Of a DNA stretch of 64,000 bases, positions 5,892 through 7,899 are shown in pieces. Under the pieces are notes generated by a model. It saw only the letters and a program-made list of their open reading frames with translations, did no database searches and was not told the DNA's origin. Position 1 is the stretch's first letter. Every line of letters starts with the position of its first letter. The translations under genes and the position numbers were made by a program. Origin of the DNA: Deltaproteobacteria bacterium (GTDB lineage: Bacteria; Myxococcota_A; Polyangia; Polyangiales; JADJMO01); the NCBI GenBank assembly GCA_022843175.1, contig JALHOE010000008.1, positions 1 to 64,000 on the forward strand, read 5' to 3'.

Positions 5892-6211
5892 AGCGTGAAG
5901 CGGGTACCCGCTACGCGCCATGTCCGCGCGTGAACGTCGAAGGGTCGGGGTGACGATTCAACGGCGTGAGATCGCGCGGGAACTCGTTCGATGCGTCAGT
6001 GAGCCGGTGCAACGAGCGCTGCAGACGACCGGCGCGCTCGTTGCCCTGCCCGTCCTCGGGGGCCTTCATCACGACCACCGCCGAGCGGCATGACGCGCTC
6101 CATGAACCGCGGACGGCGAAAGGAGCCACCAGAGGCCGGGGCCGGCCGCGGATTCCGCTGCGATCTGCAGCCGGGCGTGCGGCCTCGGCGAGCGTGATGT
6201 AGGGTTCCCGC
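5892..6211. other. intergenic region, no gene called
   Basis: A 320-base gap. Two short overlapping frames, one on each strand (plus 5920-6093, 57 codons; minus from about 6085 to 5911), have mixed codon quality and no recognisable product. It probably contains the promoter of the lipoprotein operon starting at 6212. Confidence 0.4.
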
Positions 6212-6850
6212 ATGGCTCGATGGCTCCCGCCGTTCGTCGGCGTGCTGCTGTTTTCCTGTGGCAGCGAACCGGCCAGCACCACGTCCGTGCCCCCCGCGGA
6301 GGACAGCACGCCGGTCGCGGAGGACACCGCGCAGGTGGAGGAGACTCCGCCCGCCGAGGTGTGTGGAACGAAGGTCGGCGAGATCTTCTGCGATCACACG
6401 CTCACGGGTTACGCCCGCCCCGGCCAGACCACCGGCCTCGCGACGTCGGAGCCGTACGGCCCGCACAAGATCACCGACGTGTTGAGCAAGAGCGCGGTGA
6501 AGTACGTCTACGTCTTCGCCTCTGCCTACTGGTGAGGCGCTTGTCGAGCGAACGCCGGTGCGGCGGTCACGAAGTTTGCGGAAGGTCTCCACGAGAAGGC
6601 CGAGTTCGTTCAGTTGATCACAGAAGGAGTCGCGCCCGAGAAGCCTGCGCTCAAGTCCCACCTCGACAACTTCGTGAACACGGTGAAGATCCCCTACTCC
6701 GCGTTCCGCGATCCGGACGGGAAGCCGTTCTTCATCGTCGAGGCGATCGGCGAGAAGCACACCGGCATCGTCCTCGAGCGGGCGACCCGCAAGATCCTGT
6801 TCGTGGGTACCGAGGCCGCCGCGCTCGGTCATCTCGCCAGCCTGCCGTGA
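6212..6850 (+). CDS. thioredoxin-like lipoprotein, candidate selenoprotein (in-frame UGA at 6533)
   Basis: One frame runs from ATG 6212 to TGA 6850 (212 residues) if the internal TGA at 6533-6535 is read through. Residues 1-16 are a lipoprotein signal (lipobox LLFSC, Cys16). An acidic linker follows, then a thioredoxin-like domain. Before the TGA it reads 'SAVKYVYVFASAYW'; after it comes 'GACRANAGAAVTKFAEGLHE'. The TGA is thus residue 108 and fills the first Cys of a W-C-G-x-C redox motif, with Cys111 as partner. The downstream part (FIVEAIGEKHTGIVLERATR) keeps coding character. A perfect 5-bp hairpin CGCCG-GTG-CGGCG (6553-6565) puts a G-containing loop 23 nt after the UGA, within the usual spacing of bacterial SECIS elements. 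Otherwise it is a nonsense-mutated or misread Cys codon. It overlaps the next gene by four bases. Confidence 0.7.
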
Positions 6851-7899
6851 GCAGTGTGCGCGCGTTCGTTGCGTTCCTGCTGATCGGCTGCTCGGCGAAG
6901 GAGAGCGCGTCACCGGCGGCGCACGCGCCGGCCGATTCCGGCTACGCGGACGTCGCCCGCAACGTACCGGATGCCGATGCGGAGACGATCGTCGAGATCA
7001 CCCCGCCGGCGGTGCCGGGGACGCTCGCAGAGACGGGTCTCTACGCCGACTTCGCTGCACGCACGCTCGCAACTGGCGTGATCCCGTTCGACGTGCGCTA
7101 CCCGTTGTGGTCCGACGGCTCCGAGAAGTCACGATGGCTGTGGGTCCCGCCCGGCAAACCGATCGACACCGCCGACATGGATCACTGGGCCTACCCGATC
7201 GGGACCAAGGCCTGGAAGGAGTTCCGCCGCGACGGCGTCCTCGTGGAGACGCGCTATCTCGAGAAGAGCGGAGAGCCGCCCATCGGCTGGAAGTTCGTCG
7301 CGTACGTCTGGAGCGCGGACGGCAAGAGCGCGGTCGCGACGCCCGGCGGGCTCGCGAACGCACTCGGTACCCCGCACGATGTCCCGTCGCAGGAACAGTG
7401 CGAGCAGTGTCACAGCGGAACTCGCGACGGATTGATCGGCGTGAACGCGATCCAGTTGAGCAGCGAGAGCGGCAAGAGCGTGCTCGCGTCGCTCAGCGAG
7501 AAGGGCCTGCTCTCGAAGCCGCCGGGCAAGGAGTTCACGGTGCCCGGCGCCGGAGCCGTGCGGGATGCCCTTGGCTACCTGCATGGCAATTGCGGGTACT
7601 GTCACAGTGACGCCGGACGATGGGCCAAGGAACGGGAGATCCGATTGCGCGTCCGCGTCGGCGACACCACCCCCGAGTCGACCGCGATCTATCTCACCAC
7701 CATCAACGTCAAGATGCATCACGGCGACACGAAGGGGAATCCCTACATCGCCGTCGTTCCCGGCGATCCCGCCGCGAGCCACGTCTACGATCGGATGATC
7801 AAGCGTGACTTCTGGGCGATGCCGCCCGTCGGATCCGAGGTTGTCGATCCTACGGGGACCGCCCTGGTCAAGGCGTGGATCGCGTCACTGCCCAAGTGA
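6847..7899 (+). CDS. lipoprotein with two CxxCH haem motifs
   Basis: A 350-residue exported lipoprotein from a GTG start that overlaps the preceding stop (GTGA at 6847-6850). The signal ends at lipobox LIGC (Cys15). The conserved core has 'GVIPFDVRYPLWSDGSEKSR' and 'YPIGTKAWKEFRRDG', as in the HNE_0200/SO_0930-type conserved family. Two c-type haem motifs follow, CEQCH (about 185-189) and CGYCH (about 249-253), and the C-terminus is 'DFWAMPPVGSEVVDPTG'. Cys-His motifs imply covalent haem and electron transfer at the cell envelope. Co-transcription with a thioredoxin-fold lipoprotein suggests the partner may keep the haem-binding cysteines reduced; that is inference. Confidence 0.75.
   Translation: MSSVRAFVAFLLIGCSAKESASPAAHAPADSGYADVARNVPDADAETIVEITPPAVPGTLAETGLYADFAARTLATGVIPFDVRYPLWSDGSEKSRWLWVPPGKPIDTADMDHWAYPIGTKAWKEFRRDGVLVETRYLEKSGEPPIGWKFVAYVWSADGKSAVATPGGLANALGTPHDVPSQEQCEQCHSGTRDGLIGVNAIQLSSESGKSVLASLSEKGLLSKPPGKEFTVPGAGAVRDALGYLHGNCGYCHSDAGRWAKEREIRLRVRVGDTTPESTAIYLTTINVKMHHGDTKGNPYIAVVPGDPAASHVYDRMIKRDFWAMPPVGSEVVDPTGTALVKAWIASLPK

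Follow-up and report, generated by a model that had tools for sequence, protein, structure and literature searches.

A putative selenocysteine codon in the redox motif of an exported TlpA/ResA-like lipoprotein from a Myxococcota genome

An interrupted thioredoxin-like lipoprotein gene

The 64,000-nt stretch of DNA analysed here (the window) contains a forward-strand reading frame at positions 6212–6850 that is interrupted by a TGA triplet, which raises the question of whether this triplet marks a damaged gene, a gene boundary or a codon for selenocysteine (Sec). The UGA was interpreted as being read as Sec, with a probability of about 0.96, and the gene as encoding an exported TlpA/ResA-like lipoprotein selenoprotein with a U-G-A-C site. 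This reading, already proposed in an initial annotation, is supported computationally by the presence of a Sec machinery, by Cys/Sec exchange exactly at the UGA site and by a Sec-specific hairpin, as well as by purifying selection after the UGA and by the predicted fold.

Translation of 6212–6850 with TGA as Sec (U) yielded 212 residues, ending at a TGA stop (6848–6850), and confirmed that a single frame is broken only by the TGA at 6533–6535. The deduced product begins with a signal peptide and a lipobox, followed by a variable linker and then a thioredoxin-like domain, an assignment based on this translation, a family alignment, AlphaFold2 and Foldseek. The signal peptide and its lipobox, LFSC, occupy 6212–6259 on the forward strand; Cys16, the last lipobox residue, was invariant in a 27-row alignment, which points to lipidation of the protein. 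A possible Shine–Dalgarno sequence (AGGG, 6201–6204, forward strand) was read 7 nt upstream of the start codon. The active-site motif is A-Y-W-U-G-A-C (W107-U108-G-A-C111), in which putative Sec108 (6533–6535) occupies the first and Cys111 (6542–6544) the second, resolving redox position.

All TGA triplets on both strands of the window were subjected to a log-odds codon-usage scan that required coding-like in-frame sequence on either side. The TGA at 6533 was the only match in the 64 kb, which makes a chance origin of the broken frame very unlikely.

Cys/Sec exchange among homologues

A protein search returned matches in 44 of 145 relatives, and when all fetched loci were analysed in six frames, using a profile built from 27 members, 89 distinct domains were identified, the counts of the phylum search being lower bounds since seven candidates were scored per genome. 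The codon aligned with 6533 was TGC in 49 domains, TGT in 10 and TGA in the remaining 30, with nothing else observed, whereas the codon for Cys111 was TGC or TGT in all 89. Homologues thus carry Cys at position 108 (59/89), as anticipated by the assignment of the TGA to the first cysteine of a W-C-G-x-C motif. Each of the 30 TGA-bearing domains contained exactly one TGA, at the equivalent site, and no internal TGA was observed within the 59 aligned Cys domains; relatives interrupted by TGA elsewhere in the domain, which would have argued against Sec, were therefore not encountered in this set.

Eight TGA copies and about 11 Cys copies were identified in the genome from which the window derives. 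Besides the window's own copy on contig C8, TGA copies are located at C1:83581-84270, C27:17252-17944, C17:19313-20059, C17:24744-25421, C329:641-1300, C37:41851-42555 and C84:6661-7131, the last of which diverges most from the rest and is the least secure assignment. A search of genome contigs with the single window protein returned no matches; a narrower family alignment, searched against genome contigs, recovered three named loci, from Myxococcales and Polyangiaceae metagenome-assembled genomes.

A family tree constructed by a quick method, with the motif residue masked, implied at least eight switches between Sec and Cys, four of which are forced by well-supported branches. In one supported clade, the Sec copy of genome G273 grouped with the Cys copies of G245 and G336, and all three genomes encode tRNA-Sec. 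The corresponding, closely related loci, L107 (Sec; G273) and L104 and L105 (Cys; G245 and G336), share the motif GAWW[C/U]GKCRAAT and differ in it only at the Cys/Sec site, which, judged from the sequences, appears to represent a recent switch. Given this number of switches, and the coexistence of eight Sec with about 11 Cys copies in one genome, the family constitutes a good natural experiment on why selenium is retained at some sites of a cell's proteins and sulphur at others.

Sec machinery and distribution of tRNA-Sec

The window's genome assembly (9.75 Mb, 95% complete) is fragmented into 470 contigs. It was shown to contain a tRNA-Sec gene with a UCA anticodon, which scored 65.1 bits against a gathering threshold of 47, together with selA (389 bits), selB (279 bits) and selD (359 bits). 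The start of selA is missing; the selB score refers to the N-terminal part, the C-terminal part being absent because the frame runs into the contig end. The search for selA, selB, selC and selD proposed in the initial annotation thus recovered every one of them, with both selA and selB truncated by contig ends. Furthermore, selD (L069, G000:C44:36123-37052) is itself a selenoprotein gene with one in-frame TGA (HGAGUACKI), in agreement with the UxxK motif listed for selenophosphate synthetase (PMC13188914), and serves as an internal positive control for the decoding of UGA as Sec in this organism.

Among genomes with an aligned TGA copy, tRNA-Sec was detected in 19 of 20, comprising 14 of 15 in a first set and all five in a second (G041, G009, G033, G042 and G273); the sole genome without a match is a bin that is 76% complete. 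No selA match was obtained for G003 and G058, both of which carry TGA copies, yet tRNA-Sec was present in each. Neither selA nor tRNA-Sec was found in G076, G082, G143 and G121, which carry the closest all-Cys copies. The absence of tRNA-Sec from ten Cys-only genomes is partly built into the comparison, as these were selected for lacking a selA match. Cys copies were also found in the Sec-decoding genomes G245, G336, G222 and G060, and the implication from TGA to tRNA-Sec therefore runs in one direction, as expected.

A Sec-specific hairpin after the UGA

Bacterial SECIS (bSECIS) elements have been described by a stem of 4–16 bp, a loop of 3–9 nt with G in one of its first two positions, a distance of 16–37 nt between UGA and loop, and an energy at or below −7.5 kcal/mol (PMC13188914). 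The perfect 5-bp hairpin with a G-starting three-base loop noted previously was recovered exactly, as CGCCG-GTG-CGGCG at 6553–6565 on the forward strand (alternatively CGCC-GGTGC-GGCG). Checked against the bSECIS description, this putative element has the appropriate layout (5-bp stem, GTG loop, 22 nt after the UGA), but the energy of its bare stem, −6.1 kcal/mol, falls short of the limit; values of −9.4 and −12.3 kcal/mol were obtained for the 24-nt local fold and for 42 nt, respectively. Compared with dinucleotide-shuffled sequences, the 42 nt following the window's UGA showed no gain in folding stability (z +0.89). Given the energy of the bare stem, the case for this hairpin, which is weak when taken alone, rests on the family, in whose Sec members a hairpin occurs at the matching position.

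In the 24-nt stretch starting 12 nt past the UGA, the mean energy was −10.9 kcal/mol for Sec and −4.9 kcal/mol for Cys members (p 1.4e-11), a stretch that was picked after looking and a p value that, like the other hairpin p values, is too small because related sequences were treated as independent, although the direction is clear. The GC content of this stretch was 0.73 for Sec and 0.67 for Cys members. Fairer tests are provided by a sliding energy profile from −120 to +156, which displayed a single peak, at +18, for Sec but not for Cys members, and by the published bSECIS criteria. Applied with uninterrupted stems, these criteria accepted 21 of the 30 sequences with Sec and 4 of the 47 with Cys, and the pass rate at other codon positions of the Sec genes was 9.2%. 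The loop of Sec members mostly starts 21 nt after the UGA (range 17–24), with xG(U/G) as its usual reading. By the stability of the whole 42-nt fold, Sec and Cys members could not be told apart (p 0.39), and covariation in the hairpin (RNAalifold) was modest, as a conserved AARDLA-like peptide constrains part of the stem. A bSECIS-like hairpin at a fixed distance characterises the TGA members, whereas the Cys members lack it.

Selection after the UGA

Across eight pairs of Sec genes, the region beyond the UGA gave dN/dS values of 0.10 to 0.38, in most pairs similar to, or lower than, those of the region before it, the window's own gene being too divergent to be paired. The post-UGA region of Sec genes is under protein-level purifying selection.

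These findings bear on the explanation that a nonsense mutation or a miscalled base at a Cys codon produced a pseudogene or an apparent one, with no Sec insertion. In one isolated gene, a single TGC-to-TGA change would give the same picture; however, 30 independent-looking members, eight of them in the window's genome, carry TGA at that codon only, selection persists past it, the TGA copies track tRNA-Sec and the hairpin is Sec-specific, which renders this explanation very improbable. Even less probable is the decoding of UGA 6533 as another amino acid through a changed code or a suppressor tRNA: while the frame would be open under such a code, the gene's own stop is TGA, the window holds no other TGA inside coding-like sequence, the tRNA found with a UCA anticodon is tRNA-Sec, and the site is otherwise always Cys among the 89 members.

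Predicted fold and known relatives

AlphaFold2 modelling from the 27-row alignment (pLDDT 87.6, with values above 94 across most of the domain) predicted a thioredoxin fold in which the redox motif opens the first long helix (residues 109–123, DSSP). The mechanical open reading frames 6212–6535 and 6614–6850 might be taken for two short genes, or the first half for the product of termination at the UGA, but the break lies where the active-site helix of a single domain begins, the Cys relatives are single continuous proteins and conservation also covers the codons that separate the UGA from TTG 6614, including that for Cys111, so that this explanation, as improbable as a changed code, was rejected on the evidence against it, as were the other two.

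For the predicted Sec-containing lipoprotein, the top Foldseek matches of the model were DsbE (3gl3) and ResA (4nmu, 1st9), and the best PDB match of the family profile was ResA 3c71 (E 6.9e-11). The family thus resembles the exported reductases ResA, DsbE and TlpA, which carry Cys where its Sec members carry Sec. None of the Pfam (Redoxin, AhpC-TSA) and NCBIfam (ResA) models scored over cut-off on the window's copy; at E 0.01 or better, PF00578 (AhpC-TSA) matched 17 and PF08534 five of 27 family members.

A 2026 review lists TlpA-like, Prx-like and Redoxin classes of UxxC selenoproteins (PMC13188914). Among these, the predicted 'thiol-disulfide isomerase-like protein' (cd02966, TlpA-like, UxxC), compared here by its description, shares the general fold class and the UxxC placement, whereas the present family is a multi-copy lipoprotein set of Myxococcota-type genomes. 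The Prx-like thiol:disulfide oxidoreductase (PF00578, UxxC or UxxU) and the Redoxin family protein (PF08534, UxxC) (PMC13188914) are similar in that they share UxxC and that many family members match PF00578 or PF08534, with the window's copy under both cut-offs. The 6212–6850 product is very probably one more UxxC selenoprotein of an already listed kind. No study of Myxococcota selenoproteins was found among the open-licence literature searched. Most of the bacteria so far known to be rich in selenoproteins are anaerobes (PMC13188914), and this large-genome Myxococcota lineage joins those worth counting for selenoproteins. Gene finders that treat UGA as a stop split these genes in two, and such proteins are consequently easily missed.

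Inspection of the alignment by eye indicated that the cis-proline opposite the motif, located just before the strand that starts at about residue 184 (window-protein numbering), has apparently given way to another residue in most Sec members and in the Cys relatives nearest to them, and is kept in other Cys paralogues (GLPYN, AMPLN) and in L051. This replacement may alter the binding of substrates or metals.

Proposed mechanism and gene neighbourhood

The likeliest role of the product is that of a membrane-anchored selenol/thiol-disulfide oxidoreductase, for which we infer lipidation, redox direction, electron donor and substrate as follows. SelB carrying Sec-tRNA would recognise the hairpin just past the codon, so that the ribosome would read UGA 6533 as Sec. 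Outside the cytoplasmic membrane, Sec108 of the lipid-anchored protein would make the attack on a disulfide or on some other oxidised substrate, leaving Cys111 to resolve the resulting selenosulfide. Electrons may be supplied by a DsbD/CcdA-type membrane protein, and a carrier of this type in the window's genome (72.9 bits) represents a candidate donor only.

The next gene (6847–7899, forward strand), the GTG start of which overlaps the TGA stop (GTGA), encodes a cytochrome c-like lipoprotein with two CxxCH motifs and a weak PSCyt1 match just below cut-off. Its position suggests a functional link to the selenoprotein gene. A paralogue of its product (38% identity) is encoded on G000:C149 (L094).

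As read from sequence, the Sec copies on C1 and C27 adjoin multicopper-oxidase-like genes. The two loci (L048, G000:C1:76000-85500; L049, G000:C27:16000-21500) are near-duplicates in gene content, both encoding one redoxin with Sec, one with Cys (WCPPC) and a lipoprotein that resembles multicopper oxidases, which suggests a duplicated extracytoplasmic redox cluster that is possibly copper-linked. It is a tentative and rather speculative proposition that the lineage-specific, much-duplicated Sec-lipoprotein family of Polyangia-type Myxococcota forms an extracytoplasmic selenium redox system with the adjoining multicopper-oxidase-like and cytochrome c-like proteins, with repeated Sec/Cys exchange among paralogues.

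Elsewhere in the window, the reverse strand at 2390–2899 encodes an SMI1/KNR4 (SUKH)-type protein, a family whose members are often immunity proteins of contact-dependent toxins.
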